Counted from the stretch's first letter, positions 10,826-33,440 are shown. The stretch: DNA of 64,000 nt from Natrinema salifodinae (GCF_900110455.1 NZ_FOIS01000003.1:203491-267490), one strand, 5' to 3'. Numbers and translations are program-made. Notes: generated by a model not told the origin, from the sequence alone.

Positions 10826-10954
10826 ACGCCATACTCCGTCGCGGTCCTCAAATGAGTGTCGACAGGTCGACCGCGAACGCCGGTCGCAAGCCATCGATCG
10901 TCGCCCGTCTCCGTAGGCATTTTTATATCCGGCTGCGTACCGGGAGGTATAGGT

Positions 10955-11284: not shown

Positions 11285-11359
11285 CCGCACCAATCGCGAC
11301 CTTCTCCGGCCGTCGATCCCGGCGATCCCAGCCGTCCGTTCTCCCGTCTCCCGCCCGCT

Positions 11360-13790: not shown

Positions 13791-13792
13791 GG

Positions 13793-14653
13793 TCACTGCT
13801 TCATTGCCCCCATCGTTAAGCCACTAACCAGGTAATTTTTCACGATCAGCCCGAAGAGAACCATCGGCGTGAGGATGACGACACCGATCGCCATGACTTG
13901 ACCCCACAATGTGCCGGTCTGCGTGACGAGCTGTGCGGCAGCGACCGGAACAGTCTGCGTCTCGCTGTTGGTGAAGATCAGCGCGAACAGGAAGTCGTTC
14001 CAAGCGAAGACGATCGATATGATCGCCGTCGCACCCATCCCCGGGAGGACGAGCGGGAGCGCGACCTTGTAGAACGCTTGCCAGTGAGTAGCGCCGTCTA
14101 TCCGCGCAGCTTCCTCAAGCGCCTCTGGAACCTCGTCAAAGAACGAACGCATCAGCCAGATAGCGAACGGAAGGTTAAACGTCGTATAGGCGATGACGAG
14201 CCCGATTCGCGTGTTCAGTAACCCCGCGTACTGGTACAGGAAGTACAGTGGAAGGATGACGACCGCGATCGGCGCCATTCGGGTGCTGATGATCCAGAAA
14301 GCGAAGTGCTTCTTTCCTCTCATCCGAATCCGTGAGAGACCGTACCCACCGAGCGTCCCGAGGCTGACAGCCACGACAGCGGACGCAACTGCGACGACGA
14401 TGCTGTTAAGAAGGTACTTCGTCAGTGGATTCGCGCCGAACAGCAGCTCCGCGTAGTACTGAAGTGTGGGTTCGAAGATCAACTGCGGTGGCATCTGGAA
14501 CATTCCGGAGCGAATCTTTAGCGACGAGAGAACCATCCAGATGATGGGTACGAGCGTCCAGACGACGAATAACCCTAACACGAGGTAGGGACCGGCCTGG
14601 CCCAGAATTTTGTGCCAGTTCAGAGACTGGTCTGACGACGTTGCGTCACGCAT
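13793..14653 (-). CDS. Sugar ABC transporter permease (MalG/UgpE type)
   Basis: 286 residues, six membrane segments. The EAA loop (EALEEAARIDGATHWQAFYKVALPLVLPG) that contacts the ATPase is intact. Together with the upstream permease it forms the membrane channel of a CUT1-family sugar importer. The ATG at 14653 overlaps the end of the upstream permease by 8 bases; the GTG at 14665 is possible. Its stop overlaps the GTG option of the TrmB gene. No ATP-binding subunit is present in the window. Confidence 0.92.
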   Translation of the reverse strand: MRDATSSDQSLNWHKILGQAGPYLVLGLFVVWTLVPIIWMVLSSLKIRSGMFQMPPQLIFEPTLQYYAELLFGANPLTKYLLNSIVVAVASAVVAVSLGTLGGYGLSRIRMRGKKHFAFWIISTRMAPIAVVILPLYFLYQYAGLLNTRIGLVIAYTTFNLPFAIWLMRSFFDEVPEALEEAARIDGATHWQAFYKVALPLVLPGMGATAIISIVFAWNDFLFALIFTNSETQTVPVAAAQLVTQTGTLWGQVMAIGVVILTPMVLFGLIVKNYLVSGLTMGAMKQ

Positions 14654-15584
14654 CGTCGCCAGCACCTCCCATGACGGACTCGGTGAAGAATATCCCGAGC
14701 AGAACTGTCACGATGAGCATACCGATGCCCATCGCTGCGCCGTAGCCGAGATTGTAGAATCGAAGCGACTCCTCGTAAACGAGAAAGCCGATGATCTTCG
14801 TCGAGCTCGCCGGGCCACCGCCCGTCGTAATGAAGATCTTCGTGAAGTACCGGATAAGATCCATCGAGCGTAATAACAGGGCGATCGCCAGTGCGGGTTT
14901 GAGCATCGGCAGCGTCACGTACCGGAACTCCGTCCAAAACGTCGCGCCGTCCACGCGAGCCGCTTCGTAGAGTTGTCGGGGGACAGCCTTGAGTCCGGCA
15001 AGAACGATGAGCACCACGAGCGGTGTCCACTGCCATGTGTCCATGACGATAACCGCGATGAGAGCACTCGGTTGTGACCCTAATATCGGACTCTCCGTGA
15101 ACAGACCGATCTGATTGAGGAGCCACGTATAGAGGCCGAACGACGGATCGAGAAGGAACTGCCAGAGTAGCCCGACAACCACGGGTGCAATCATCATCGG
15201 CATGATGATAATACCCGTCAGTACGTTCTCACCTCGCGAAACGCGATCCAACAGCAACGCGATAGCCGTTCCCAGTGTGATTTGCAAGGAGAGAGCACCG
15301 ACGATGTAGAACACCGTCACCTTCCATGAATTGGCGACAGTGCTGTTGAACATCGCCTGGTAATTTTCGAGGCCAACGAACGTGGGTTCGTGACCGGGCA
15401 AGAAGTTGACCTCCATAGCGGACAGCCATAGTAGTGCGATCAAGGGGACGATGCTGAGTATTCCGAGGACGAGAACGCTCGGCGCTAGCAAGAGGCCCTC
15501 GAACGATACCGGCAGTCTATCGACGATCGGCCCTTTGGTTTCGGGCTCATCGCCGACGAACACATCTGACTGTTGAGTTGCCAT
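14646..15584 (-). CDS. Sugar ABC transporter permease (MalF/UgpA type)
   Basis: 312 residues with six membrane segments after a cytoplasmic N-terminus, and an EAA motif (YEAARVDGATFWTEFRYVTLPML). It is the partner of the downstream permease. The internal ATG at 15584 is chosen; the 30 residues encoded upstream are basic, out of character, and would overlap the binding-protein gene. It follows the binding-protein gene by 25 bases, so one transcript is likely. Confidence 0.92.
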   Translation of the reverse strand: MATQQSDVFVGDEPETKGPIVDRLPVSFEGLLLAPSVLVLGILSIVPLIALLWLSAMEVNFLPGHEPTFVGLENYQAMFNSTVANSWKVTVFYIVGALSLQITLGTAIALLLDRVSRGENVLTGIIIMPMMIAPVVVGLLWQFLLDPSFGLYTWLLNQIGLFTESPILGSQPSALIAVIVMDTWQWTPLVVLIVLAGLKAVPRQLYEAARVDGATFWTEFRYVTLPMLKPALAIALLLRSMDLIRYFTKIFITTGGGPASSTKIIGFLVYEESLRFYNLGYGAAMGIGMLIVTVLLGIFFTESVMGGAGDDA

Positions 15585-15609
15585 AATGGGAAACGTCAGT
15601 TTGGAGGGA

Positions 15610-17040
15610 TTACAGCGTGTTCGACCACTGTTCGTCGACGGCTTGCATCGCTTCTTCCGGCGACTTGTCATCACTGATCATCGCCGAAAGCTCGGAGTAA
15701 AGCGCCTCGTTAAGTTCTAGCCACTGGGCTGGTTTCGGACGCATCCCGACGTACTCTTCTTCCCACGCTTCCTCGACGGGTGGGACAACGTTGGGGAACT
15801 CGCTTTCCTCCGTGGGCTGTTCGGCGGCCTCCGTAACTGCATCGCGCTCGTACACCGAGTGGCGTGTTGGTGTCCCGCCGGCCATCTCGAGTGCGCGCAT
15901 CTGGATCTCTGGGGAGGTAGCCCAGACGAGGAACTTCCAAGCAGCCTTCCGTTCGGCATCCGACGCGTGAGAGTTGATTGTGATTCCCGCACCGCCGTAG
16001 AGGTTCACGGAGCGCTCGGGTCCCTGGGGGAGCAGCGCCCAGCCGACGTCTTCGGTGACCACGCTCTGTTCGGGGTCGGCGAACATTCCGTTGAACTCGT
16101 GCCATTCGGGCGTCATCGCGATTTCTCCTTGCGCGAATGCCTGTCCGACGCCGTCCCAAGTCCACGAGGTCGAGCCAGGGTGGGCAATATCGAGCAACCG
16201 GTCGTAGAACTCCGCAGCCTCGATGCCTCGTTCCCCCGAGAGGTTAGGCTTTGGATCGTCGGACCATCCGTGGTCGACACGGCCGCTGAACCCTTCAACG
16301 TCCTCTCCGCCGTACGCCCAGAGGACGTTATGGAAGTCACATTGCAAGGAGTCGTGCTGCTGAGCTTGGTGACCGGTCCCGTAGTCGACTTCGTCGACGT
16401 TCTCGTTGATCCACTCCGCCATCTCGTAGTACTCTTCCCAGGTTCGCTCCCTGCCCGGTTCGAACGGGAAGCCGAGATCCGCTTCAGCTTCGTCCTTGTA
16501 GTTCTCGATGATGTCTGTGCGGTAGGCCCACAGCATCGTTGGGCAGTCGTATGGGAGGCCGCGAAGTTGGTTATCGCCGAAGTACCCGCACGCATCGAGG
16601 TGACTCGCGATGAAGTCGTCAGTTCCGTTCGGAAGGTCCTCGAAGTCGTCGGACTCGATGTACGGATCGAGCGATTCCATGTCCGGGTAGTACCGGGAGC
16701 CGACGATGTACGGATCGGCGTAGAAAACCTGAATGTCTCCGGTTTGGCTATTTATGTCGCTTGCAAGACGTTCGGAATAGTTATCGAACGGTGCGAGCGT
16801 GATATCGACTTCGATACCCGTCTCTTCAGTAAACTCGCCGATCAATTCATTTACCGCTACGCTTGGTGGCGTCGCTTCCGAAATGAAACTGATCGAGGAG
16901 GCTGGTTCGATATCGGGGTCGGGAAGCCCTCCCGCTTCGTTATCTTCGCCGAGACACCCTCCGAGACCTGCGAGGCCGGCAGCACCACTCGCTCGTATGA
17001 AAGTACGACGATCGATACCTGGTCTGTTATTATCTATCAT
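15610..17040 (-). CDS. Sugar-binding lipoprotein of ABC transporter (family 1 solute-binding protein)
   Basis: 476 residues. A twin-arginine signal (R11-R12-TF) is followed by a lipobox ending in C29 (LGGC), so it is exported folded and lipid-anchored outside the membrane. The mature part resembles maltose/multiple-sugar-binding proteins (NELIGEFTEETGIEVDITLAPFDNYSERLASD; later EMAGGTPTRHSVY and a Trp-rich cleft). Sugar specificity cannot be read, but the neighbouring polyol-type dehydrogenases suggest a pentose, hexitol or uronate. The ATG at 17040 is placed just before the Tat motif; ATG at 17064 is also possible. Confidence 0.9.
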   Translation of the reverse strand: MIDNNRPGIDRRTFIRASGAAGLAGLGGCLGEDNEAGGLPDPDIEPASSISFISEATPPSVAVNELIGEFTEETGIEVDITLAPFDNYSERLASDINSQTGDIQVFYADPYIVGSRYYPDMESLDPYIESDDFEDLPNGTDDFIASHLDACGYFGDNQLRGLPYDCPTMLWAYRTDIIENYKDEAEADLGFPFEPGRERTWEEYYEMAEWINENVDEVDYGTGHQAQQHDSLQCDFHNVLWAYGGEDVEGFSGRVDHGWSDDPKPNLSGERGIEAAEFYDRLLDIAHPGSTSWTWDGVGQAFAQGEIAMTPEWHEFNGMFADPEQSVVTEDVGWALLPQGPERSVNLYGGAGITINSHASDAERKAAWKFLVWATSPEIQMRALEMAGGTPTRHSVYERDAVTEAAEQPTEESEFPNVVPPVEEAWEEEYVGMRPKPAQWLELNEALYSELSAMISDDKSPEEAMQAVDEQWSNTL

Positions 17041-17277
17041 TCGGATCGAGCCTGTGTGAGTCATAATCACACTCATTAATAAAATTTATCGTGGTTACAT
17101 AGCAGCAGTTTATGGCCAAAATTCTCCGATTCAACTCGTATTAACCCAGAATTCAATATATCGGAGTGAATTGAATTGTTCCATACATTTGATTGTATAT
17201 GTAACTGATTAACGTCAATGATAGCGACTATGAATTATCCCTCATGTTTTTATTGAATGGAAAAGTCTGACCAGCCG
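17041..17277. promoter_or_regulatory. Divergent promoter region of the sugar island
   Basis: A strongly AT-rich spacer between the binding-protein operon and the dehydrogenases. An inverted repeat AATTCAAT-12-ATTGAATT spans 17150-17177, with arm centres about 20 bases apart on one DNA face. GTTTTTATTG at 17246-17255 is the TATA-like box of the gene at 17278. The minus side has TTTTATTA at about 17079-17086. TrmB-family control is plausible, given the regulator in the operon. Confidence 0.5.
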
Positions 17278-18309
17278 ATGCGTGCCGCAGTACTCACTGA
17301 TCCGGAGGAGTTCGAGATCGAAGAAAGAGAACGGCCTGAGCCAGACGCAGATGAGGTTCTCGTCAAAATCCGTAATGTCGGTATCTGTGGCTCAGATGTC
17401 CACTACTATGAACATGGCCGAATCGGCGACTTCGTAGTTGAGAATCCGCTCGTCCTTGGCCACGAGAGTGCGGGAGAGATCGTTGAAACAGGTGCTAATG
17501 TCAATGGATTCGAAGCCGGTGACCGCGTTACTCTCGAGCCAGGCGTCCCCTGTCGGCGTTGTTCTCACTGCAAACGCGGTGATTACCACCTCTGTCCCGA
17601 CGTCACGTTTATGGCAACGCCGCCTCACGATGGCGCATTTTCGGAGTACGTTGCATGGCCCACGGACTACACGTACAAACTCCCCGAAAACATCTCGACA
17701 CGAGCGGGAGCGCTCTGTGAACCGCTCTCTGTCGGCATCCATGCATGTCGACGGGGTAACGTCGGAACCGGTGACACCGTTCTCATTACGGGTGCGGGAC
17801 CGATCGGTCTTCTCGCGATGGAGGCCGCACGTGCGGCCGGCGCGACGGATGTCATCATCACCGACATCGTACAGTCGAAACTCGAATTTGCAAAAGAACG
17901 TGGCGCAGACCACGCTGTCAATGTCGCTGAAACAGACCTCGAGACGGCGATCAACGAATACACGGACGAGAGTGGCGCCGATGTCGTCATCGAAGCTTCC
18001 GGGGCCGAACCCTCCGTCAAGTCGACGCTCGACGGCGTCCGTCGTGGGGGGAACATCGTATTCGTCGGACTCGCCAGCGAGTCAGAGATCCCACTCGACG
18101 TCGTCGACATCATCAACAACGAGCTCGACGTGTACGGCTCGTTTCGCTACAAGAACACGTATTCGACGGCGGTGAAACTTCTCGCCGACGGTGTCGTGGA
18201 CGTCGAGGGTATTATCGACTTCGAGCGGGGATTGGACTCGATCGACGAAGCCTTCGAACGTTCGATGAAGCCGGACGTCATCAAAGGCATGATCTCAGTA
18301 GATCGTTGA
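17278..18309 (+). CDS. Zinc-dependent medium-chain dehydrogenase (sorbitol/xylitol/threonine dehydrogenase-like)
   Basis: 343 residues from the chosen ATG. The catalytic zinc region is GICGSDVHYYEHG and GHESAGEIV; the four-cysteine structural zinc lobe is CRRCSHCKRGDYHLC; the Rossmann motif is GAGPIGLLAMEAA followed by an Asp-ending strand (IITD), which favours NAD(H). The SDVHYYEHGRIGDFVV stretch is characteristic of polyol dehydrogenases. The ATG at 17278 is preferred to 17257 because the TATA-like box at 17246-17255 is 28 bases upstream of it. It probably oxidises the imported sugar or its polyol. Confidence 0.9.
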   Translation: MRAAVLTDPEEFEIEERERPEPDADEVLVKIRNVGICGSDVHYYEHGRIGDFVVENPLVLGHESAGEIVETGANVNGFEAGDRVTLEPGVPCRRCSHCKRGDYHLCPDVTFMATPPHDGAFSEYVAWPTDYTYKLPENISTRAGALCEPLSVGIHACRRGNVGTGDTVLITGAGPIGLLAMEAARAAGATDVIITDIVQSKLEFAKERGADHAVNVAETDLETAINEYTDESGADVVIEASGAEPSVKSTLDGVRRGGNIVFVGLASESEIPLDVVDIINNELDVYGSFRYKNTYSTAVKLLADGVVDVEGIIDFERGLDSIDEAFERSMKPDVIKGMISVDR

Positions 18310-18398
18310 TCAATGGCGATTATCACAGCGTCAATTCGGCCGATCGCACGCGGAACCAGAATGGCTAGATATGACTGACGGATGCGAAACCACATCGA

Positions 18399-19178
18399 AT
18401 GTCCATACTTGATTCATTTCGCTTGGATCAGCGCACTGCAGTCGTAACGGGCGGAAATCGCGGGATCGGGAAAGGAATCGCCACAGCGCTCGCCGATGCC
18501 GGCGCGGACCTCGTCGTGGCGAATCGTGACCGGGACTCCGGCGTCGCTGCAGCCGAGGAAATCGCGGCCGAAACGGGCGCTGAGACGCTCGCGGTTCAGA
18601 TGGACGTAACCAATGAGGACGACGTGGCAACAGCGGTAGAAGCTATCATCGACGAGTACAATTCGATCGATGTGCTGGTCAACAATGCTGGCATAACGGA
18701 GAACGTCCCTGCTGAACGGATGGATCCCGAGGACTGGCAACGAGTAGTTGACGTCAACCTCACCGGCGTGTTTCTCTGTTCGAAACATGTCGGTCGCCGG
18801 ATGATCGATGGCGATGGCGGATCGATTGTCAATGTCTCGTCTATCTCGGCTTTCATCGCCAATCATCCTCAACCGCAGGTAGCCTACAATGCATCCAAGG
18901 CGGGTCTCGAAGGCCTCAAAACCCAACTAGCCTCAGAGTGGGCGAGGTACGACATCAGGGTCAACAATATCAATCCCGGTTACATCCGCACCAATATGGT
19001 CGAGGACGTTCTCAAAAACGATCCCGAGATGGCCGAAGAGTGGAAACGAGAGATGCTCCTCGACGAGATGGCGCGTCCAGAATCGATCGGGGCGCTCGCC
19101 GTGTACCTGGCATCGGAGGCCTCGTGGTACATGACGGGCGAATCGATCTCTATCGATGGCGGGTACACCGTCCGCTGA
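18399..19178 (+). CDS. Short-chain dehydrogenase/reductase (sugar/polyol type)
   Basis: 259 residues, classical SDR: cofactor motif TGGNRGIGKGIA, NNAG at about 90, catalytic S-Y-K as VSSIS...YNASK, and C-terminal SWYMTGESISIDGGYTV. The family includes gluconate 5-dehydrogenase, 2-deoxygluconate 3-dehydrogenase and arabinitol dehydrogenase; specificity is open. It lies 89 bases after the zinc dehydrogenase in the same direction, so the two may catalyse consecutive oxidations of the sugar imported by the ABC system. It is the last gene of the lower-GC island. Confidence 0.9.
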   Translation: MSILDSFRLDQRTAVVTGGNRGIGKGIATALADAGADLVVANRDRDSGVAAAEEIAAETGAETLAVQMDVTNEDDVATAVEAIIDEYNSIDVLVNNAGITENVPAERMDPEDWQRVVDVNLTGVFLCSKHVGRRMIDGDGGSIVNVSSISAFIANHPQPQVAYNASKAGLEGLKTQLASEWARYDIRVNNINPGYIRTNMVEDVLKNDPEMAEEWKREMLLDEMARPESIGALAVYLASEASWYMTGESISIDGGYTVR

Positions 19179-19354
19179 CCGCTCTATGGGGACCGACACG
19201 CGCATCGATAATCTGCTGTAAGCCCTGCACTTGAGACGAGTGATCCGATAGAGACGCCATTATCGACGTACACAGTTGAGACTGTCGAGTAACAGCGCCG
19301 TTGTACTCCGGTTCCGAACCGACTCTTTTAATCCTGGATCCACGAACGAGGAAT

Positions 19355-20738: not shown

Positions 20739-21107
20739 ATGGCTTCCTTGCAGGGGATCGCGGGCGCGGTCCTCGGGTTCGCGGTCGTCCTCGGCTGTAC
20801 CGGCGTCGTGTACCGAGACGCGCGCCGGATCGGCGTCTCGCGGCCGCACCTGTGGGCGGGGTTCGTCTTCGTCACGTGCGGCGGCGGGCTCGGGATCTTC
20901 CTCTCGCCGCTGGACGTGCCGGTACCAGGCCTGCTCGTGATCGTCATCGCGGGCCCGGCGCTGTACCTGTTCGAGCGCGACGACGCGAGACACGGGGACG
21001 AACCCGCCGACCCGCACGTTCTCCCGGACGGCCGCAGTGAGACGGCCGACAGCGATGGCAGCGACGGCGACGAACGGACCGCGAACGAGCGACGGTCCGA
21101 CGGCTAG
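20739..21107 (+). CDS. Small membrane protein, unknown
   Basis: 122 residues with about three hydrophobic segments (residues 5-25, 37-56, 60-78) and then a hydrophilic Asp/Glu/Arg tail that is probably cytoplasmic and disordered. The first loop VYRDARRIGVSRPHLWAG is reminiscent of haloarchaeal phospholipase D-nuclease N-terminal-like membrane proteins, but no function is claimed. TTTTCCCC at 20711 lies 27 bases before the ATG, supporting this start over the long in-frame ORF. Confidence 0.65.
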   Translation: MASLQGIAGAVLGFAVVLGCTGVVYRDARRIGVSRPHLWAGFVFVTCGGGLGIFLSPLDVPVPGLLVIVIAGPALYLFERDDARHGDEPADPHVLPDGRSETADSDGSDGDERTANERRSDG

Positions 21108-21186
21108 CGAGCCGATCCGCGACGCCCGCCCGACGGGCCCGGGACACCACACACCTTTTGCCCGCGCCCGCCCAACGGCCGTCAAC

Positions 21187-22233
21187 ATGAGCGACTCCGC
21201 GAATTCCGGGGGCGACGGCGCGAGCGCCGACGCCGAGGCGGGTCCCGACGGCGACGCCGACCGCACCGGCGGCCCGGCTCAGGTCTCGAGCCCGGACTAT
21301 CACAGCGAGAACCACACGGCGGCCCAGACCTGCGGCTGGACGGCTAACGCCATCCGCGGCGAGGGCAAGTGCTACAAGTACATTTTCTACGGCATCGAGT
21401 CCCACCGCTGCATCCAGATGACGCCCGTCGTCAAGTGCAACGAGCGCTGCGTCTTCTGCTGGCGCGACCATCAGGGCCACGCCTACGAGATGGACGAGGT
21501 CGAGTGGGACGACCCCGAGGCGGTCGTCGACGCCTCGATCCGGCTCCAGAAGAAGCTCCTCTCGGGTTTCGGCGGCAACGACGAGGTCCCCCGCGAGGTC
21601 TTCGACCAGGCGATGGAGCCGCGCCACGTCGCCATCTCGCTGGACGGCGAGCCCACGCTCTACCCCTACCTGCCCGAACTCATCGAGGCCTTCCACGACC
21701 GCGATATCACCACGTTCCTGGTCTCGAACGGCACTCGCCCCGAGGTGCTCCGGGAGTGTGACCCGACGCAGTTGTACGTCAGCGTCGACGCCCCCGAGCG
21801 CCACACCTTCGATCAGGTCGTCGGCGCGATGGAGGACGATTCCTGGGAGCGGCTCCTCGAGACGATGGACGTCCTCGCGGAGAAAGACGAGACCCGGACC
21901 GTCCTCCGGACGACGCTCGTCGACGGCGAGAACATGCACCACCCCGACTGGTACGCGGGCTTCTACCAACAGGCCGATCCGGACTTTATCGAGCTGAAGG
22001 CGTACATGCACGTCGGCCACTCGCAGGGGCGGCTCGACCGGTCTTCGATGCCCGACCACGAGGAGGTCGTAGCGTTCGCCGAGGACGTCAAGGAGTACAT
22101 GCCCGCGTTCGCCGAGTGTCGGGGCGTCCCGGCCTCCCGCGTCGCCCTGCTCGCGAAGGAGAAGGACACCTGGGTCCCGAAACTGAAGAAGGGCAGCGAG
22201 TTCTGGGAGCGCGATCCGGTCGTCGGCGACTGA
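21187..22233 (+). CDS. taw1: tRNA 4-demethylwyosine synthase (radical SAM)
   Basis: 348 residues, TYW1/Taw1 family: converts N1-methylguanosine at position 37 of tRNA-Phe to the tricyclic imG-14 using pyruvate. The radical-SAM cluster motif is C84-x3-C88-x2-C91 (KCNERCVFCW), followed by the TYW1 signature region HVAISLDGEPTLYPYLPELIEAFH and the terminal WERDPV. A second cluster is expected from the N-terminal cysteines C49 and C62. The start follows a CCTTTTG box; the first 35 residues are a low-complexity acidic extension. Confidence 0.94.
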   Translation: MSDSANSGGDGASADAEAGPDGDADRTGGPAQVSSPDYHSENHTAAQTCGWTANAIRGEGKCYKYIFYGIESHRCIQMTPVVKCNERCVFCWRDHQGHAYEMDEVEWDDPEAVVDASIRLQKKLLSGFGGNDEVPREVFDQAMEPRHVAISLDGEPTLYPYLPELIEAFHDRDITTFLVSNGTRPEVLRECDPTQLYVSVDAPERHTFDQVVGAMEDDSWERLLETMDVLAEKDETRTVLRTTLVDGENMHHPDWYAGFYQQADPDFIELKAYMHVGHSQGRLDRSSMPDHEEVVAFAEDVKEYMPAFAECRGVPASRVALLAKEKDTWVPKLKKGSEFWERDPVVGD

Positions 22234-23806: not shown

Positions 23807-25219
23807 TCACAGGTACCCCAGGTCCTCGAGCTGAGATTCCAGACCTGATAGATCCGTTTCGTCGAGGCCGTCCCGCGTTTCGAGGTCGGCGAGCAGCCGC
23901 TCGAGTTCCGACTCGAGGGTCGCCTGGTCGCAGTCGCCGAGCAGCCGGTCCTCGAAGATGCCCTCGAAGTAGTAGCAGCCGGCTGTCGCGATGCCGTACC
24001 GTTCGCGGTCGACGGGTGCGACGTCGTAGCCGTCGTCCTCGAGCGCGAGCGCTCGCCGCTTCGAGATCCCGTGGTACTCCAGCAGCGCGTTCGACCGCGG
24101 TTCCGGCGCGACGGGGTCGCCCGAGAGCAGCGGACGGAGCGATTCGCCGCGGCGGTGTTCCGACTGGATTTCCGCGAGGTCGAGCACCGTCGCGTGGACG
24201 TCGAGCAGGTTCGCGAGGGCGTCCCGCGTCGCTCGCTCCTCGCCGTCCGCGTTGGGGGTCCGGTCGTCGGCGTTCGGACCGGGCGCGGAGACGACGAGCG
24301 GGACGCGCGTCACCGGGGGGTGGAGACCGCCGCCGTGTTGCCAGGCGCCGTACTCTCCGAGCGCTTCGCCGTGGTCGGCGAGTGTCACGACGTAGTCGAA
24401 CTCCTCGGCGAGTTCCCGGTAGATGTCCCGATAGATGTCCGAGAGGTACCGCACGGCGTCGTCGTACGCGGTCGCGATCCGATCCGGGTCGGCCGACGGC
24501 TCCCCGAGCGTCGCTTTCACGCTGTCGAAGTGCGGCGGCTCCTCGTCGGGATAGGTGCGGTACTCGTCCGGCGGGTCGTACGGCAAGTGCGCCTCCATGA
24601 GATTCGTGAAGAGGAACTCGGGATCGTCGTTCCACGACCGCTCTCGGACGTACTCCAGAAACTCCGCCGCACCGTCGTCGGGGTGGCGGCCCTTCAGTCC
24701 CATGTCCCGGAGTTTCATCAGGGCGCCTTGCCGCAGCGATTGGACCGTATCGCAGTCGCCGTCGACGCAGCGCCAGAGCGCACGGACGTACCGTTCCGGA
24801 CCGTCCGATCGGTGGTCCGCGATGAACTCGTCCCAGTCGAAGACGTCCTCGCCGAGGCCGCGAAGCCGCCAGCCGCCGTCGAACTCGTCGAACCCGTGGT
24901 GCCAGCCCAACTGTTCGGAGATGTTGACGTTACAGCTGAACGCTCGCGTCCGATAGCCGCGATCCTGCAGCAGTTCGGGGAGGCGAGTGGCGTGCCGATC
25001 GAACGCTTGGGACGTGATCGTCACGCCGACCTCGCTCGCGTAGCGGCCGGTGAACAGCGAGGCGTGGGCCGGGGCCGTCCAGTGAGTCGTGCTCCACGCG
25101 TTCGTGAACTGCACGCCGGGCAACCAATCGAAGTGCTCGTCGAACGAATCCGCCCGAAGCGTATCGAGCACGATGAGGGCGATAGATGGCTCGTCTCCCA
25201 TAGTCGCGGTTCCGATCAT
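23807..25219 (-). CDS. Sulfatase-like alkaline-phosphatase-superfamily protein with Thr nucleophile
   Basis: 470 residues. The metal-site start is IALIVLDTLRADSFDEH, the nucleophile loop STTHWTAPAHASLFTGR has T48 where sulfatases have Cys/Ser of C-x-P-x-R, and the second metal site is VTLADHGEALGEYG. There is no signal peptide, so it is probably cytoplasmic or loosely membrane-associated. Lack of the formylglycine residue makes sulfate-ester hydrolysis unlikely; phosphodiester transfer or hydrolysis on a glycan is more plausible. It ends in LEDLGYL. ATG at 25201 is an alternative start. Confidence 0.85.
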   Translation of the reverse strand: MIGTATMGDEPSIALIVLDTLRADSFDEHFDWLPGVQFTNAWSTTHWTAPAHASLFTGRYASEVGVTITSQAFDRHATRLPELLQDRGYRTRAFSCNVNISEQLGWHHGFDEFDGGWRLRGLGEDVFDWDEFIADHRSDGPERYVRALWRCVDGDCDTVQSLRQGALMKLRDMGLKGRHPDDGAAEFLEYVRERSWNDDPEFLFTNLMEAHLPYDPPDEYRTYPDEEPPHFDSVKATLGEPSADPDRIATAYDDAVRYLSDIYRDIYRELAEEFDYVVTLADHGEALGEYGAWQHGGGLHPPVTRVPLVVSAPGPNADDRTPNADGEERATRDALANLLDVHATVLDLAEIQSEHRRGESLRPLLSGDPVAPEPRSNALLEYHGISKRRALALEDDGYDVAPVDRERYGIATAGCYYFEGIFEDRLLGDCDQATLESELERLLADLETRDGLDETDLSGLESQLEDLGYL

Positions 25220-25271
25220 CGTACCATATCGCCGATAAAGAACCTAGTCCCGGCAATGGAACCGGGTGCGC

Positions 25272-26282
25272 TCACAGGACGGTCGCGACCCCCTCTTCGA
25301 GAGCCTCGACCTGCGCGTCCTTCTCCCGCTCGAGTTCGTCCATATCGAACGAGACCGGCTCGGCCGTGACGTCCCCGTCGATCGGGACCCGGTCGAACAG
25401 GTTCGCTCTGGGGGTGTCGAAGTAGAACTGGGCCCTGTTGCCGTAGGTCAGCGCGGGGAGGCAGGCGTGGATCCGGTCGGACCGCACCACGTCCGCGTTG
25501 GCGTAGAGGAAGAGGTAATCGGTCACGAGATCGGAGACGAAGACGTTCTCCGTCTCGAACAGCGGCGTCTCGAGGCCGGCCAGTTCCCTCGCCCGTTCGC
25601 CGACCGGGAAGTGGTACGGTTCGTCGAAGGGCGCGTGATCGGGCCTGATGACCGTCGACGCGCCGTCGATATCGGGTTCCTCGAGTTTGTCGAACGTGTG
25701 GACGTCGAACGCCTGGTTCGCGTCCGGCGGCCGATGCCGGTCGCCGAGGAATAGCGAACAGTCGATGCCGTCGTACCTGTATTCGACGAGATCGCCGTAC
25801 TCCTCGTAGGCGGTCCGGTCCCGCGTGAGCAGGACCTCGATATCCAGCGCGTCGAACACGGTCTCCACGTACTTCCGTTCGTCCTGATCGTACTCTTCGC
25901 CGCCCCCGCCGACGATAACGATCGGCACGCCCCGCTCCCTGAGTTCCCGGAGCGTATCGTAGTACTTGCGGAAGGTCGGCCTGGAGAGCACGCATCCCGG
26001 GAGGACGGCTAGGTCAGCATCGATCAGCTCGCTGACGTTCACCGCGTTCCGGCGGATCGGGTGGGTCGGCGACTCGTAGTCGGAGCGATCGAACCCCGTC
26101 ATCCGAGCGAGCTTCCGGGTTCCGCCCCACAGCGCCGCGGTGTCCGACGCGTGGTTGGGATAACCCCCCGTTTCGACGATCTCCGCGTCGGGAAACGCCC
26201 GTTCGAGCATCGCTCTTGCCCCGTAATCGATGAATCCGTTCCCGATGTTCGTCGTCCACGTTCGCAGAAGCAGGATTCGCAT
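25272..26282 (-). CDS. Polysaccharide pyruvyl transferase family protein
   Basis: 336 residues. The N-terminal MRILLLRTWTTNIGNGFIDYGARAMLE, the VIVGGGGEEYDQDE loop and the later VVRSDRIHACLPALTYGNRAQFYFD are the CsaB/WcaK family pattern. Known members put a pyruvate ketal from phosphoenolpyruvate on cell-surface polysaccharides. Here it sits among glycosyltransferases and phosphatase-fold proteins, so the glycan is probably pyruvylated and negatively charged. It is 96 bases after the preceding gene in the same direction. Confidence 0.87.
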   Translation of the reverse strand: MRILLLRTWTTNIGNGFIDYGARAMLERAFPDAEIVETGGYPNHASDTAALWGGTRKLARMTGFDRSDYESPTHPIRRNAVNVSELIDADLAVLPGCVLSRPTFRKYYDTLRELRERGVPIVIVGGGGEEYDQDERKYVETVFDALDIEVLLTRDRTAYEEYGDLVEYRYDGIDCSLFLGDRHRPPDANQAFDVHTFDKLEEPDIDGASTVIRPDHAPFDEPYHFPVGERARELAGLETPLFETENVFVSDLVTDYLFLYANADVVRSDRIHACLPALTYGNRAQFYFDTPRANLFDRVPIDGDVTAEPVSFDMDELEREKDAQVEALEEGVATVL

Positions 26283-26378
26283 CGTGGTTCTCTCCGCCGG
26301 AATCGGGTATAATTATGCGGTGGATACACCCCGTTCCCGTCTCGGTCCGTCGGCGACGACCCGTCCGCCCGCCGCGCC

Positions 26379-27293
26379 TCAGTCGAGATAGCCGAGTTCG
26401 CGCAGGCGGTCGGTCGGCATGTCGATCCCCTCGTCGGTTCCGGTCGCGGTCGCGGAGCCTTTCGCACGTTCCTCGACCCACGCCCGCACGTCGTAGACCG
26501 ACTCCGGGCAGGTCTCCGCCGTGGAACTCGCGTACGCGCGCCAGGAGTGACTCGCCGGCTTCTCGCCGTCGTCCGGCGGGTAGAACGCGGTCCGCATGCC
26601 GTGATCGCTGACGACGAGGAGGTCGTCGTCCTCGCCGAGGGCGTCGGCGACCTCCTCGACGAACCCCCCGACGCGGCCGTAGGCCCGACGCAACGCGGCC
26701 TCGTCGTCGGCGTAGGCGTGGCCCGCCGCGTCCAGCGTGTGGACGTGGACGCCAGCGATCGAGACGGGGTGTTCGAGCATCTCGCGCGCCCAGCCGAACT
26801 GCTGGGCGCAGAGCCCGAACAGTTCGCGCTCGAACTCGCTGCGGGACATCCCCTCCGCCACGGCGTTCATCAGGTCCCAGGCCCGCTGGAGCGGCTCGCC
26901 GTCGTGGACGCCTGGCCAGTTGTGGACGACCGCGTCGTCGGCGTCGAACATCGACTCTCGGTCCGTCTCGCCGATCCGCTCGCGCGTGCCGGTCCGCGAC
27001 CGAACCAGTTTGCCGAGCGTCCCCCGAGTCGACTCGTCGAGGTGCCCGGTGACGGTCGACGCGAGGTCGAGCGCGGGGTTTTCCCACTCGCTCGTTCCGC
27101 CGCCGGTGATCCCGTGCTCGGCCGGTTCGAGCCCGGTCGCGACGGTCGCCCAGACCTCTGGCGTGTACGGGACGTCCTGCGTGTTCGCGAACGTCTCGAT
27201 CTCCCCGCCCGACCCGAGGCGGACGGCGTCGAGATCGAAGTAGTCGACCAGTCCGGCGTCGAGCGCGTCCAGCGCCAGTACGACGACCGTCAT
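26379..27293 (-). CDS. Alkaline-phosphatase-superfamily protein (type I phosphodiesterase-like)
   Basis: 304 residues, the shortest of four paralogues. Metal residues are VVLALDALDAG at the start and VVSDHGMRTAFYPP; the nucleophile T44 is in VPYTPEVWATVATGLEP, as in nucleotide pyrophosphatase/phosphodiesterase relatives. HVHTLDAAGHAYA supplies the other metal ligands. It has no signal peptide and ends in LRELGYLD. It overlaps the upstream paralogue by 4 bases, so the pair is translationally coupled and may act in succession on the same glycan. Confidence 0.85.
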   Translation of the reverse strand: MTVVVLALDALDAGLVDYFDLDAVRLGSGGEIETFANTQDVPYTPEVWATVATGLEPAEHGITGGGTSEWENPALDLASTVTGHLDESTRGTLGKLVRSRTGTRERIGETDRESMFDADDAVVHNWPGVHDGEPLQRAWDLMNAVAEGMSRSEFERELFGLCAQQFGWAREMLEHPVSIAGVHVHTLDAAGHAYADDEAALRRAYGRVGGFVEEVADALGEDDDLLVVSDHGMRTAFYPPDDGEKPASHSWRAYASSTAETCPESVYDVRAWVEERAKGSATATGTDEGIDMPTDRLRELGYLD

Positions 27294-28399
27294 GCGTAAC
27301 CGAGATCCTCCAGATCTTCCTGCAGCGCGTCTTCCTTGACGACGTAGGCGGGGTCGAACCGTTCGCGCTCCCGCTCGAGGGCGGGATCGTCGACAGGCTC
27401 GCCGTCGTCGAGTCGGTACGTGCCGTCGTCCGTCGCGATGTGTTCAGCGGTCATCGCAGCCTTTCGATCCCCGTAGGCGGCGAAGGCGGTGTCGCGATCG
27501 AACGTGCCGCTGCCGTGTTCGGCGCCCGTCAGGATCGTCGGGACGTCGACCAGCGAGACGACCTCCCCGACCTCGGGGGCGTTCCGCGTGCCGAACGGGA
27601 CGTTCAGCAGTTCGGGGCGCATCTCTCCCGGGTGGCCCCACAGCCCGTCCTCGCCGAGCAGTTCGCCGTGATCGCCGCAGCAGACGACGCGGGTCTCGTC
27701 GGGGATCGACGCCCACAGGGACTCGAGGGCCGCGTCGAGTTCGGCGACCTCCCGCCGGTAGAGGTCCCGAACGAGGGCTTCGTCCTCCGCCGAGCCGCGG
27801 TCCGAGAGCACGCGACGGGTGATCCGCTGTGCCGTCGCCCGGTCGACGTCCGCGCCGTCGGGATCGTACGGGTGGTGGGGCTCCATGAAGTGCAGCCAGG
27901 CGAACCACTCGTCGCGACCGGCGACCTCGTCTAAGAACTGGTCGACGACGGCGTCCGCGGGTCGGAACGACTTCTCAGTCTCGTCGACGTAGCTCCGAAG
28001 CTGCTGATAGCGGTTGTAGCCCCAACTGGCGATCTTGTACGGGAGCGACCCGCGCTCGAGCAGGATCGCGCCCTTGTCCTTCAGCGACTCGCCGCCGCCT
28101 TTCGGTGACGTGAACGAGTCGAACCCGGTCGCGTAGCCGTACTCCTGAGAGAGCAGGTGATTCGTCGTGATACCGACGCAGTGGACGTCGAACTCGTTCG
28201 CGACACTAGCCTCCGTCTCGAGGCCATTTCCGGCCGGGTACTCCCCGCCGATGATCGCCGGGAAGCTGCCGGGCGTCGCGGTGCTCGTGGCGAACGCGGC
28301 GTCGTGGGTGTCGTCCAGGAACTCCCGGGTTCGGGGCATGTACTGGACGTGATCGGTTCTGAGCGAATCGATCGTGACTAGCAGGGTCGTCTCTGTCAT
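27290..28399 (-). CDS. Sulfatase-like alkaline-phosphatase-superfamily protein
   Basis: 369 residues. It opens TTLLVTIDSLRTDHV; the nucleophile loop TATPGSFPAIIGGEYP places T42 at the catalytic position when aligned on the G-G that replaces the T-G ten residues on. The loop lacks the His seen in two paralogues. Other ligands are in WLHFMEPHHPYDP and CCGDHGELLGEDGLWGHPGE, the latter a typical sulfatase-fold metal site. It has no signal peptide and ends LEDLGYA. It lies 34 bases after the previous gene. Confidence 0.85.
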   Translation of the reverse strand: MTETTLLVTIDSLRTDHVQYMPRTREFLDDTHDAAFATSTATPGSFPAIIGGEYPAGNGLETEASVANEFDVHCVGITTNHLLSQEYGYATGFDSFTSPKGGGESLKDKGAILLERGSLPYKIASWGYNRYQQLRSYVDETEKSFRPADAVVDQFLDEVAGRDEWFAWLHFMEPHHPYDPDGADVDRATAQRITRRVLSDRGSAEDEALVRDLYRREVAELDAALESLWASIPDETRVVCCGDHGELLGEDGLWGHPGEMRPELLNVPFGTRNAPEVGEVVSLVDVPTILTGAEHGSGTFDRDTAFAAYGDRKAAMTAEHIATDDGTYRLDDGEPVDDPALERERERFDPAYVVKEDALQEDLEDLGYA

Positions 28400-28433
28400 G
28401 CGTGGGTATTCACCGTCCGAATCGAATTCGTGC

Positions 28434-29891
28434 TCATAGGTATCCCAGATCCTCCAGTCGCGCGCGACTCGCCTGGTCGACCTCCGCGGCGTCGGTCCGC
28501 TCGCCGTCGGTGATCCAGTCGCCGAAGGCGGATTCGAAGACGCCGTCCGGGACCGTCTCGTCCGGTCGTTCGACCTGTTTCGACGGCGGCCCGGAGACGT
28601 CGTACACCGCCTCGGTGCCGAGCTGGTCGCGGTAGTACTTCCGCTCGCCCTCGTAGACGACCCGCTGTCCTCGGTCCCAGTACGACTCGTCCCCGCCCTC
28701 CGGGATGCCGGAGCCGGAGCCGACGATCTCGGCGCGAGCGCGCTCGCGCTCGAACGAGAACGGATCGAACGGGTCCTCGTTCGCGAGCGACCGGATCACG
28801 TCGCCGAGGTCGGCGTGGGAACTGAGCCCGTCGACGTCGACGGGACGGGCGGCGCCGTCGGCGCCCGTGTCGTCGACCGCGAGCTCGAGGGCGCGGTCGC
28901 CGGTGGTGACGACGTCGAACGGGACGTGCAACAGCCCCTCCGAGAGGCTGCTCATGTGGTTCATGAGGTGGCCGTCCGATTCGTAGCCGAGGTTCTCGCC
29001 GTGATCGGCCGTGACGATCAGGATCGACTCGCGGTCATCGCGCTCTAACGCGGTCACCAGGTCGGCGACGATCCGATCGAGGTACTCCACCGTCGCGGCG
29101 TACAGCCGGCGGACGCGCTCGACGTCCGGACCGAACTCGCCGAGGCCGTCCGCGACGTTCACGTCCGAGTCCCGGAACGAACTCGAGTGGAAGTCGGCCG
29201 AAACGCCGTGAATCGAGTCATCCAACCCGCGGAACGGGGTGTGGGGCCCGTGAGCGTCCATGAAGTTGGCGAAAGCCAGCACCGGGCCGTCGCGCTCGGT
29301 GATCTCCCGCTCGAGGGACCGAGCGATCGCCCGCCCGCCGAAATCGGTCGGTTTCTCGATCGGCAGTTTCCGACTCACGTCGTCCAGTTTGAGCAGGACA
29401 CCGTTGCACAGCGATCGCAGCGGATGCTCGTGGTCTAGCGCCTGGCGGACGAAATCGGCGTAAGCCCCCATTCCCTCGGTCGACCGGTCGGAAATGTGCC
29501 GTTGGACGTCCATCCCAGCCGGCAGTCTGCGACTCGGTGAGACGGGGATCGTCCGATCGAAGAACCGGTCGAATCCGAAGACGGGGCTCGCGTAGATGTT
29601 CGCCGTGACGCAAACCGACTCGTACCCCTGGCGCGCGAGTGGCGCGATCCAGGTGTCCTCGACGTCGATCGGATCGAACCGGCGCTGGTGGGCGTGCACG
29701 CCCGTTTCCGACGGGACCGACCCCGTCAGCAGTCCGGCGTGACTCGGGACGCTCCAGCCGCCGAGCGCTCGCATCCCCTCGAAGCGGACGGCGGCCCGCT
29801 CCCGCAGCCCGGTCGCGTACCGATCGTAGACGTCTTTCCTGACGGTGTCGAGACAGACGACGACGACGTTCGGTCGGTCGGCTCCGGTCAT
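28434..29891 (-). CDS. Sulfatase-like alkaline-phosphatase-superfamily protein with Ser nucleophile
   Basis: 485 residues. PNVVVVCLDTVRKDV starts the fold. The loop GGWSVPSHAGLLTG has S47 at the nucleophile position and His where sulfatases have Arg. FANFMDAHGPHTPF and IVTADHGENLGY complete the metal sites. It ends LEDLGYL and has no signal peptide. The ATG at 29891 overlaps the stop of the upstream glycosyltransferase (ATGA). The frame is open far upstream to 30884, but that stretch is an arginine-rich shadow of the glycosyltransferase gene. Confidence 0.86.
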   Translation of the reverse strand: MTGADRPNVVVVCLDTVRKDVYDRYATGLRERAAVRFEGMRALGGWSVPSHAGLLTGSVPSETGVHAHQRRFDPIDVEDTWIAPLARQGYESVCVTANIYASPVFGFDRFFDRTIPVSPSRRLPAGMDVQRHISDRSTEGMGAYADFVRQALDHEHPLRSLCNGVLLKLDDVSRKLPIEKPTDFGGRAIARSLEREITERDGPVLAFANFMDAHGPHTPFRGLDDSIHGVSADFHSSSFRDSDVNVADGLGEFGPDVERVRRLYAATVEYLDRIVADLVTALERDDRESILIVTADHGENLGYESDGHLMNHMSSLSEGLLHVPFDVVTTGDRALELAVDDTGADGAARPVDVDGLSSHADLGDVIRSLANEDPFDPFSFERERARAEIVGSGSGIPEGGDESYWDRGQRVVYEGERKYYRDQLGTEAVYDVSGPPSKQVERPDETVPDGVFESAFGDWITDGERTDAAEVDQASRARLEDLGYL

Positions 29892-30982
29892 GCGTACTCC
29901 TCGAGCGCGGCGCTGAAGCGGTCTCCCTGGTTCGACTCGGTCAGGTCGGCGACGAGGCGTCGCTGCTCGCTCGCGGTGGCCCGCCGCTCGTCCGGCGACC
30001 GCTCGGAGACATCTCGCAAGCCCTCGAACAGCCCCCGCTCGGTCGGCGGAACGACCTGCCGAGCGGGCAGCAGCTCCCGCACGCCGGTCGCTTCGGTGAC
30101 CAGCGTCGGCGTTCCCGAGAGGATCCCCTCGAGCGCGGCGACGGGGAACGCGTCGCCCCGCGACGACTGGACGTAGACGCTCGCGCGACCGAACCAGTCG
30201 GCGAAGGCGTCCAGGTCGACGAACCCGGGCGTGACGACGTGGGGGCGGTCCGCGTAGGCCCGCTCGTCGTGTCCCTCGCCGAGGACGGCCAGGCGCATGT
30301 CGGCCTCGACGGTGCCGGCGAACCGCTCGACCGCTCGGGCCAGGCGGTCGTATCCGTTCGCCGGTTTGGCCTCGCCCGCCGAGAGGACGGTAAACGGATC
30401 GGCGGGCGAGCGCGGCGAGAGCGACGCGAGCCGGTCGTACTTGTCGTCGGCGATCGGCGGCCGGACGTACGCGACCGGGACGTCGCCGACGTACGGCCGC
30501 GCCCAGCGGTAGACGTCGCGGCCGACCGCGATCACGCCGTCGAGCAACCGATTCGCGAGCGGCTTGAGTCCGCGCCAGAGGTGCCGCGTCGGGCGCTCGG
30601 GCAGCGTGTAGAACGTCTCGTCGGCGGCGAGATAGACGAGGGTCGTTCCCGGCCGGCGCAGTTTGTACGCGAGACCGGTCTGGAGCGGCGCGGTTCCTTC
30701 CGCGATGACGGTGTCGTACGACGGGAGCGTCCCGGCGATCCGGAGCCGATCGACGATTCGCTCCGTGTTCCCGCCCGGTGCGGGCGGTCGCGCGCCGGTC
30801 TCGAAGTGGCGACGGTCGGCGTCCACGGCGTCGGCGAAGACCCGGTGTGCGGGGTGTGCATCGTCGTTTTGGTAGAGGAAACACCGGTTGCTCGGCTCCG
30901 CTCCCCGCGGTCCCGACGCCTGGTCTTCTCGCCGCTCCCTCGATTCACCGCTCCGGTCGCGAGCGGTCGTACTCGCCGTCAC
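29888..30982 (-). CDS. Glycosyltransferase family 4-type protein
   Basis: 364 residues from a GTG that overlaps the upstream gene's stop (GTGA). The C-terminal Rossmann half has FTVLSAGEAKPANGYDRLARAVERF and the donor-site pattern DAFPVAALEGILSGTPTLV, equivalent to the E-x7-E region with Asp in first place. The N-terminal acceptor half is divergent. The first 30 residues are charged and probably disordered. It would transfer a sugar in the cytoplasm to the glycan built by this cluster. Confidence 0.84.
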   Translation of the reverse strand: MTASTTARDRSGESRERREDQASGPRGAEPSNRCFLYQNDDAHPAHRVFADAVDADRRHFETGARPPAPGGNTERIVDRLRIAGTLPSYDTVIAEGTAPLQTGLAYKLRRPGTTLVYLAADETFYTLPERPTRHLWRGLKPLANRLLDGVIAVGRDVYRWARPYVGDVPVAYVRPPIADDKYDRLASLSPRSPADPFTVLSAGEAKPANGYDRLARAVERFAGTVEADMRLAVLGEGHDERAYADRPHVVTPGFVDLDAFADWFGRASVYVQSSRGDAFPVAALEGILSGTPTLVTEATGVRELLPARQVVPPTERGLFEGLRDVSERSPDERRATASEQRRLVADLTESNQGDRFSAALEEYA

Positions 30983-32280
30983 CGATCGGTCACCCCTTCG
31001 GCGCGCTCTTCGCCGCGCCCCGCGCTGCGCCGCTGGTCGGCGTCTCGAGGGTCGTCTGCGCGTTCCGATTCCGACTCCCGCTCCGTTTCTACCGCCGGTT
31101 CCGGTTCCGTTGCGGCGGCTCCGGCTCCGGCGGCCGCGGTCTCCGCGACGACCCGACGGAGCCCCGCCGCGAAGCGGTCGTACTCGTACCGGCGCGCTTC
31201 CTCGCGGATCTCGACCGGATCGAAGTCGTCGGGGTCGAACCGGCGGACCGCCCGGCGGAGCGACTCGACGGTCGGCTCGAAGACGAGTCCCGTCCGGTCG
31301 CCCTTGACCTGATAGCGAGTGAACCCCTCGTTCACGCCGAGCAGGGGTTTGCCGGCCATCATGGTCTCGGCCCCGACGAGTCCGAAGTCCTCCTGCTTCG
31401 GCGCGTAGACGACCGCGGTGGCCCGCGCGACCAGCGATTCGATGTCCTCGACGTAGCCCCGCACCTCGATGTTGTCGTAGTTCGCCGCGAAGGCCTCGAG
31501 CCGGTCGCGCTGCTCGCCGTCGCCGGCGATCACGAGTCGCTCGTCGAGCCCCGCGAAGGCCTTCGCGATCAGGTCGATCCGCTTCTCGGGGGCGAGCCGG
31601 GACCAGGTGAGGAAGTAGCCGTCGTCGCCCTCGTTGCGCCAGTCGCCGGTGACCGGCGGGTAGACCACCGCGGCGTCGCGGTCGTAGAACCGCCGGATCC
31701 GATCCCGAACGAGTTCGCTGTTCGCGACGAACCGATCGACGTAGTCGTTGGCCTCCTTGTCCAGCGCTCGCCAGGCCTTCGCGTAGGCCTTGAGCCCGGT
31801 CTCGACGAACGGGCGGTCGAACGCGGAGAGCCGGTCCCGGTAGAGGTCGTACAGCCACCGCGGCGGGCTGTGGGGGTAGTGAACGATTCGCTGGCCGACG
31901 TCGGGGACGTAGTACTTCGACAGCGGCGCGCTCTCGAGGATCACGTCGTACTCGGCGAGGTCCTCGTGGGCGTCGGTCATGTCGAGCGCGACGTTGAGCG
32001 TCTCGAGGGGGTTCATCCCCTCGTTTTTCCACTCGAGAAAGGGCCGCCACGGCAGCGACGTGTACTTCGCCTGCTCGAAGGGGATCACCTCGACGTCGTC
32101 GGGGAGTTCCGTTCCCTCGGCGACGTAGGTCGTGTAGATCGGCGCGTCGAGCACCCGCGCGGCTTCGATGGCGAACTCCTCGCCGCCGCCGATGCCGGGA
32201 AACCGGTCGTGGAGGATCGCGACGTCGACGGGGACGGGGACGTCCGCGGCGGCGTCGGGGTCGGTCTCGCCGTCGGTCAC
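30979..32280 (-). CDS. Glycosyltransferase family 4 protein
   Basis: 433 residues starting at a GTG overlapping the GT2 stop. The acceptor-side domain begins VDVAILHDRFPGIGGGEEFAIEAARVL. The donor domain has SRLAPEKRIDLIAKAF, LVIAGDGEQRDRL and the E-x7-E motif EDFGLVGAE. The last 55 residues are Ala/Glu/Arg-rich and disordered. The sequence SPPRWLYDLYRDRLSAFDRPF is typical of mannosyltransferase-like GT4 proteins. It is second in the nine-gene run, coupled by 4-base overlaps on both sides. Confidence 0.9.
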   Translation of the reverse strand: MTDGETDPDAAADVPVPVDVAILHDRFPGIGGGEEFAIEAARVLDAPIYTTYVAEGTELPDDVEVIPFEQAKYTSLPWRPFLEWKNEGMNPLETLNVALDMTDAHEDLAEYDVILESAPLSKYYVPDVGQRIVHYPHSPPRWLYDLYRDRLSAFDRPFVETGLKAYAKAWRALDKEANDYVDRFVANSELVRDRIRRFYDRDAAVVYPPVTGDWRNEGDDGYFLTWSRLAPEKRIDLIAKAFAGLDERLVIAGDGEQRDRLEAFAANYDNIEVRGYVEDIESLVARATAVVYAPKQEDFGLVGAETMMAGKPLLGVNEGFTRYQVKGDRTGLVFEPTVESLRRAVRRFDPDDFDPVEIREEARRYEYDRFAAGLRRVVAETAAAGAGAAATEPEPAVETERESESERADDPRDADQRRSAGRGEERAEGVTDR

Positions 32281-33440
32281 TGTAACACCTCCCGCAGCTC
32301 TCGGTCGGGCGACCAGGTGCCGTCGTGGGCTTCGTCGTCGTCCTCGGCGCGGGCCCGGAGGAGGGAGACGCTCGCGCGCAGCAGCGAGATCTGGGTGTCG
32401 AACAGCGAGTAGAGCGGCTGGATCGGGCCGAGCGCGTCGCGGGAGCCGAGCGCCGTGAACCCGAGGATACCGGCCGGGACCGCGAGTCCGAACGGTCCCG
32501 CGACGGCCAGCGAGCCGACCGTCGCCAGCGCGAGCGAGCCGGCGACGAGCCACGGCGAGACGACCATGAACCACCAGTTGAACGGCAACACGACGCGGCC
32601 GTAGGCCCCGTGGCGGCCGAGCGCGTCGCGCTGGCGCCACAGCAGCCGAAGCAGCCCCATCGCCCGTCGATCCTTCTGCTCGCGGCGCTTCCCGAACTCG
32701 GAGTGGGCCGCCTCCTTGTAGTGAATTTCCGGATCGAAGACGACCCGGCCGCCGTTCCGGCGGATCTTCAGGGCGAGTTCGGTGTCGTCGGCCAGCGAGT
32801 CCTCGTCGATCGAGACGATGGCGTCGCGTTCGAACGCCGAGAACGGCCCGTGGAAGATCAGCGTCGAGTCGAGGTGCGATTCGAGCACCTGGATCATCGT
32901 CTGGAGGTCGCGGTAGCCCCGCTCGACCTCGCTGTCGCCGATAACCTCGGCGTTGCGGCCGGTCACCGCCGCAACGTCGGGATCGGCCAGGTTCGCGGCG
33001 GCCGTACGCACGGCGTCGGCCGCGATCCGGGAGTCGCAGTCGGTCTTGACGACGATCTCGTTGGCCGCGGCGGCGTAGGCCTCGTTCAGCGCGGTCGCCA
33101 GGCCCTCGCGTTCTTCCTTCCGGACGAGCGTCAGGTCGGGCGCCGGCCGGCCCGCGAAGAAGGTCTCGACCAGGTCGGCCGTCCCGTCGTCGCTCGAGTC
33201 GACGACGACGATCTCGACCTTCTCCATCGGGTAGTCGAGTCCGACGAGTTCCTCGAGTTTCGACTCGACGATCGCAGCTTCGTTGTACGTCGGCAAGACG
33301 ATGCTCACCGACGGCTCTCGCGGCTGTGCATCGGCGGGCGTGCCGGACGGCCGCCGGAGATAGTACACCCCCAAGTAGAGCAGGTACGGGAGGCCCGTCA
33401 GTGCCACCAGGCCGAACAGGGCCTCGACGAGACGTTTCAT
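32277..33440 (-). CDS. Membrane-associated glycosyltransferase family 2
   Basis: 387 residues. One N-terminal membrane segment, then the GT-A domain: VSIVLPTYNEAAIVESKLEE, VVVDSSDDGTAD, the D-x-D at TDCDSR, and a Q/R-x-x-R-W-like KIRRNGG. Three or four C-terminal membrane segments follow. Architecture matches processive or lipid-linked-glycan initiating enzymes at the inner face. It is the first gene of the cluster, so its upstream region (33441-33500) should hold the cluster promoter, including a TTGCA-TTG-TGCAA palindrome at 33487-33499. Confidence 0.9.
   Translation of the reverse strand: MKRLVEALFGLVALTGLPYLLYLGVYYLRRPSGTPADAQPREPSVSIVLPTYNEAAIVESKLEELVGLDYPMEKVEIVVVDSSDDGTADLVETFFAGRPAPDLTLVRKEEREGLATALNEAYAAAANEIVVKTDCDSRIAADAVRTAAANLADPDVAAVTGRNAEVIGDSEVERGYRDLQTMIQVLESHLDSTLIFHGPFSAFERDAIVSIDEDSLADDTELALKIRRNGGRVVFDPEIHYKEAAHSEFGKRREQKDRRAMGLLRLLWRQRDALGRHGAYGRVVLPFNWWFMVVSPWLVAGSLALATVGSLAVAGPFGLAVPAGILGFTALGSRDALGPIQPLYSLFDTQISLLRASVSLLRARAEDDDEAHDGTWSPDRELREVLQ

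Follow-up and report, generated by a model that had tools for sequence, protein, structure and literature searches.

What reaction is carried out by four proteins of the alkaline phosphatase superfamily that lack the cysteine of sulfatases and are encoded together with glycosyltransferases? This question is raised by a glycan gene cluster of Natrinema salifodinae (GCF_900110455.1), which lies in a 64,000-nucleotide stretch (NZ_FOIS01000003.1:203491-267490; hereafter the window, whose numbering is used throughout) of a haloarchaeal genome of 8 contigs. The genes, here labelled A to D, are all intact and on the minus strand.

28434..29891, minus strand: A, 485 residues, PF00884; Ser47 in W-S-V-P-S-H; D15, D296-H297-G-E299, H312; tail LEDLGYL
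27290..28399, minus strand: B, 369 residues, PF00884; Thr42 in T-A-T-P-G-S-F; D11, D243-H244-G-E246, H256; tail LEDLGYA
26379..27293, minus strand: C, 304 residues, PF01663/NPP-type; Thr44; D9, D188-x3-H192, D230-H231, H249; tail LRELGYLD
23807..25219, minus strand: D, 470 residues, PF00884; Thr48 in W-T-A-P-A-H; D19, D282-H283-G-E285, H295; tail LEDLGYL

Our analysis leads us to propose, with roughly even confidence, that A, B and D are glycan sulfotransferases resembling Agl30 and Agl31 of Halobacterium salinarum.

Active sites of the four proteins

A, B and D score 59.6, 40.7 and 86.7 bits against PF00884 (cut-off 25), and C scores 45.4 against PF01663 (cut-off 23). Reading of all four translations bore out the initial annotation in placing Ser or Thr at the formylglycine position, in each case nine residues ahead of a T-G or G-G pair. 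Specifically, the nucleophile loops read S47-V-P-S-H...T56-G57 in A, T42-P-G-S-F...G51-G52 in B, T44-P-E-V-W...T53-G54 in C and T48-A-P-A-H...T57-G58 in D, and none of the four sequences contains C-x-P-x-R. The nucleophile is invariant among orthologues (8/8 for S47, 14/14 for T42, 12/12 for T44 and 20/20 for T48), as are the metal-site residues. Profile alignments place S47 of A on T48 of D (E 2e-47) and T42 of B on the same residue (E 4e-28). The profile of D in turn aligns with choline sulfatase in such a way that T48 coincides with the position of Cys54, a residue exchanged for Ala or Ser in the aligned chains; it also matches the catalytic domains of EptA and MCR. In the alignment of C with ENPP4, T44 falls on the nucleophile position, which we take to be that of the T-F-P-N-H motif of ENPPs. 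Taken together, these alignments identify S47, T42, T44 and T48 as the predicted catalytic positions.

Judged by residue signatures, the four proteins fall into two kinds, with A, B and D carrying a site of the sulfatase family and C one of the NPP/phosphodiesterase type. The former comprises an Asp close to the N-terminus, the nucleophile and D-H-G-E, with a His further on; this invariant His (H312 in A, H256 in B, H295 in D) replaces the Lys that follows the metal motif in sulfatases. C has the full two-metal NPP set (D9, T44, D188-x3-H192, D230-H231 and H249), which is invariant in all 12 orthologues. Its AlphaFold model (pLDDT 67) finds ENPPs as best Foldseek matches (probability 1.00, TM 0.35-0.49), along with Xac NPP. 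C shares the Thr nucleophile and every two-metal residue with these phosphodiesterases, but it is short (304 residues), cytosolic and located in a glycan cluster, and it ends in an LGY tail. A, B and D are themselves mutually distant in sequence; the description of the four as paralogues is correct for the common superfamily but does not extend to recent paralogy.

In terms of location, hydropathy analysis reveals no membrane segment in any of the four proteins, the maximum 19-residue value being 0.93-0.96 for A, B and D. A PADLOC search returned no matches, and anti-phage or degradative roles were dropped as unsupported.

Precedent for glycan sulfation

Experimental precedent comes from Hbt. 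salinarum NRC-1, in which three superfamily proteins are encoded in the aglB cluster (PMC11980604). Deletion of VNG1056C (Agl30) or VNG1057C (Agl31) lowered the di-sulfated glycan more than 50-fold, and in the double deletion the sulfated peptide was more than 300-fold below the non-sulfated one (PMC11980604). Moreover, introduction of either protein into Haloferax volcanii led to sulfation of its N-glycan (PMC11980604). The authors describe the modes of action of Agl30 and Agl31 as still to be deciphered, and the nucleophile is not discussed in the sections consulted (PMC11980604). Hfx. volcanii Agl7 also contributes to sulfation, in this case of a dolichol-linked glycan, and in its cluster Agl15 is required late, once the glycan has been assembled (PMC3871713); any likeness of Agl7 to A–D would lie in function and cluster setting.

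Agl30 and Agl31 share with A–D the superfamily, a glycan gene cluster and an LxxLGY C-terminus, and Agl31 is soluble too, but Agl30 is membrane-associated (PMC11980604), A–D have no membrane segment and the window genome lacks aglB. Their C-termini, obtained by translating the published cloning primers, are HLEDLGYL and LEELGYT, and that of VNG1063H, a similar protein of the NRC-1 cluster, is KELGYIE (PMC11980604). The LxxLGY tail is present in 97 of 105 non-Cys superfamily open reading frames (ORFs) and in 0 of 6 Cys-type ones, in a sample gathered around our own matches rather than by an unbiased census, and most of the eight non-Cys ORFs without it look truncated or out of frame. The same motif closes a further ORF of the window (10616-11293, minus strand), which ends in LRGLGYLE and has a C-terminal part resembling a ribbon-helix-helix regulator. 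The NRC-1 primer pattern had no match in Hbt. salinarum DSM 3754 or in one relative, and the primer-derived peptides are absent from all aglB-flanking Halobacterium loci examined. On a contig of the Hbt. salinarum type strain (locus L061) the glycan cluster is a different one; it encodes several superfamily proteins, one of them of A type (W-S-V-S-S-H), and none of the tested NRC-1 primers or primer-derived peptides matched it.

With these precedents, sulfate is the best-supported transferred group. The initial annotation had regarded phosphoglycosyl or phosphodiester chemistry as the better guess; this is reasonable for C and possible for A, B and D, but it is not the best guess for the latter three, as Agl30 and Agl31, the only superfamily members of haloarchaeal glycan clusters with a tested function, add sulfate (PMC11980604).

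A model for group transfer

The cytosolic location, the glycosyltransferase and flippase neighbours, the Thr/Ser nucleophile and the Agl30/Agl31 precedent all suggest that a group is transferred to a lipid-linked glycan ahead of its export. We infer the class membership, donor, acceptor and transfer mechanism of A, B and D as follows. A charged surface glycan would be made on a cytoplasmic lipid carrier, with a GT2 and two GT4 enzymes performing its assembly, the cytosolic proteins A–D decorating it while lipid-linked and a Wzx-type flippase then exporting it. A, B and D would each modify their own position on the sugar chain. The metal-activated Thr or Ser would take a sulfuryl group from an activated donor, which could be 3′-phosphoadenosine 5′-phosphosulfate (PAPS), adenosine 5′-phosphosulfate (APS) or a different compound. 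The group would be bound as an enzyme ester and subsequently pass to a hydroxyl of the sugar. C is predicted to act on the same glycan as a two-metal NPP-type phosphodiesterase or transferase. With respect to mechanism, the sulfate ester of formylglycine leaves by hemiacetal elimination, and an ester of Ser or Thr cannot be released in this way, which would suit transfer rather than hydrolysis.

Several observations weigh against sulfotransfer by A, B and D. In the NRC-1 study, VNG1063H had no detectable role in N-glycan sulfation (PMC11980604). The likeness of A–D to Agl30 and Agl31 consists of superfamily, cluster and C-terminal tail, and this tail, being found in NPP-type proteins and further members of the superfamily as well, marks a broad class. 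The His in place of the sulfatase Lys in A, B and D is a feature of phosphoethanolamine transferases. As to the donor, a full APS kinase match was found in the window genome only (E 2e-45; L088, G000:C1:956322 region), where the kinase domain is fused to a nucleotidyltransferase-like (HIGH-type) domain and the gene adjoins one for a 407-residue protein resembling a PAPS-type sulfotransferase. Neither the nine relatives searched nor Hbt. salinarum DSM 3754 yielded a full match, giving short P-loop matches of ~50-85 residues only, and PF01747 ATP sulfurylase was detected in 0 of 12 genomes (CysDN-type routes to APS and PAPS were not searched). PAPS supply therefore does not track the locus, and PAPS is not established as the donor.

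Alternative reactions

The main rival to sulfotransfer is that A, B and D are soluble cytoplasmic phosphotransferases that act on the lipid-linked glycan by a mechanism like that of LtaS, EptA or PIG-N, adding glycerol-phosphate, ethanolamine-phosphate or another phospho-alcohol. We consider this possible but rather unlikely. LtaS, EptA, MCR and YejM have a Thr nucleophile and a one-metal DHG(E)...H site, as do B and D (A has Ser). In EptA-type enzymes, too, a His comes after DHGE, and the Thr and His shared with enzymes of the EptA/LtaS type keep phosphotransfer a candidate reaction. The EptA and MCR matches of the D profile fit this reading, and so does a structure search with the B model, which has YejM/PbgA, phosphonate monoester hydrolase, LtaS and sulfatases among its matches, although at pLDDT 55 that model is insufficient for an active-site overlay. 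LtaS and EptA are, however, membrane proteins that use lipid donors and act outside the cell; the same holds for MCR and YejM, which are likewise membrane-anchored, extracytoplasmic and dependent on phospholipid donors, whereas A, B and D have no membrane segment and are predicted to be cytosolic. The tested haloarchaeal members, moreover, add sulfate (PMC11980604). An unlikely alternative in its turn is a mixed set of differing chemistries, in which one or two of A, B and D would be sulfotransferases, and C and the rest phosphodiesterases or trimming enzymes. The complete two-metal site of C, with its ENPP and Xac NPP matches, the distance among A, B and D and the negative result for VNG1063H (PMC11980604) all speak for it; the retention of B, C and D as a block in relatives runs counter to it, as such co-conservation suggests one pathway, though not one chemistry.

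A further reading, that A–D are ordinary sulfatases whose Ser or Thr is turned into formylglycine, or else dead remnants, is very improbable. Formylglycine sulfatases (S1 family, such as choline sulfatase) share the fold, the metal-site frame and PF00884 with A, B and D, and some bacterial sulfatases start from Ser-x-P-x-R. The C61S mutant of EfAS, in addition, keeps 20-35% of its activity (PMC12421950). A, B and D, in contrast, lack both the Cys and the Arg of the C-x-P-x-R motif, as well as the Lys that follows the DHG/DNG metal motif. The motif Arg is replaced by His, Phe or Trp, three of the four proteins have Thr, and the site is strictly kept in up to 20 orthologues. The missing Arg and Lys led us to reject a Ser-type formylglycine sulfatase, and the claim that these proteins are not ordinary formylglycine sulfatases is supported.

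Organization of the locus

The remaining genes of the cluster and its borders, the latter with labels assigned here, are as follows.

32277..33440, minus strand: GT2 glycosyltransferase with hydrophobic N-terminus (hydropathy), first gene of the cluster; PF13641/PF00535; kept beside RFK in relatives
30979..32280, minus strand: GT4a glycosyltransferase; PF00534, 79.8 bits; conserved in relatives
29888..30982, minus strand: GT4b glycosyltransferase; PF13692/PF00534; GTG start chosen, overlapping the GT4a stop
25272..26282, minus strand: PF04230 polysaccharide pyruvyl transferase-like protein; marginal score
22276..23718, minus strand: Wzx/MOP-type flippase, last gene of the cluster; PF13440/PF01943, 75 hydrophobic windows; conserved position
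21037..22233, plus strand: TYW1-like radical SAM gene, conserved left border; same place in L041-L043 and L045-L049
33492..35140, plus strand: RFK/ribB-like riboflavin genes, conserved right border, from locus comparison with relatives

In minus-strand order, which reverses the direction from the TYW1-like gene to the riboflavin side, the cluster runs GT2, GT4a, GT4b, A, B, C, the PF04230 protein, D and the flippase. Three glycosyltransferases and a pyruvyl transferase had been noted previously; the PF04230 protein is present, but its match is marginal (28.3 against a cut-off of 25.3) and among the mapped loci it occurs in L041-L043 only. The flippase is a further member, and assignment to a surface-glycan locus is supported. 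Overlaps of 4 bp at the GT2/GT4a, GT4b/A and B/C junctions make the single operon suggested earlier plausible, although the intergenic gaps of 97, 53 and 88 bp would also permit three to four transcripts.

Conservation among haloarchaea

Orthologues of the whole cluster are found in three relatives (G008, G028 and G049, loci L041-L043), where the counterparts of A, B, C and D are 80-90% identical at the protein level. In G010, G043, G060, G016, G036 and G018 the same TYW1-RFK position is occupied by B and D, in most cases along with C (not detected in L047), together with GT2 and/or GT4a and Wzx. These six loci usually also encode a short superfamily protein of another type (E) and one more protein of C type, giving 4-5 such genes in total as a rule, so that four in one cluster, initially considered unusual, is not. 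Orthologue clusters also adjoin aglB, in the arrangements D-B-C-Wzx-AglB (L044), D-E-C-C-Wzx-AglB (L055), A-E-B-E-Wzx-GT4a-GT2 with AglB (L068, L069) and E-B-Wzx-AglB (L085), and multi-gene superfamily sets are therefore normal in haloarchaeal glycan clusters. Type E proteins (L048:8338-9423, L061:6413-7396, L083:14889-15845 and others) are short, with a W-S-V-G/A-S loop, an LGY tail and often V-H-Y-M/L-Q-P-H; some have an N-terminal hydrophobic stretch, and they resemble the primer-derived pieces of VNG1063H. A Halobacterium locus (L070, G067:C1:1122001-1142000) contains at least six superfamily genes within ~14 kb.

In nine relatives aglB lies ~5-35 kb from the TYW1-RFK locus, but it is undetectable in the window genome. 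There, aglJ (11360-12052) matches profile positions 80-293 only, with the N-terminal ~79 positions missing, and collinearity with G008 breaks off at 12035 and is restored at 19354. At this point ~27 kb including aglB are present in G008; the window has 7.3 kb (12036-19353) of other genes, among them those for a sugar ABC transporter, TrmB/PfkB-like proteins and dehydrogenases. The cluster with A–D is intact despite this loss, and its glycan may therefore not be N-linked. Either the glycan is independent of AglB or the loss is recent; the apparent loss is less likely to reflect an assembly gap elsewhere.

Implications

The A–D locus adds to a recently recognised kind, the superfamily enzymes of haloarchaeal glycan clusters. 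More broadly, it is possible, though on balance doubtful, that haloarchaea hold a large family of cytosolic alkaline-phosphatase-fold sulfotransferases that act through a covalent sulfo-enzyme on Thr or Ser and perhaps use a donor different from PAPS. If true, proteins would have solved biological sulfation in a third way, in addition to the PAPS-fold and the arylsulfate sulfotransferases. The Thr/Ser nucleophile, the His in place of Lys and the LGY tail provide a concrete and testable signature for a large haloarchaeal class of ‘sulfatases’ that is probably mis-annotated and that probably builds charged surface glycans rather than degrading sulfate esters.

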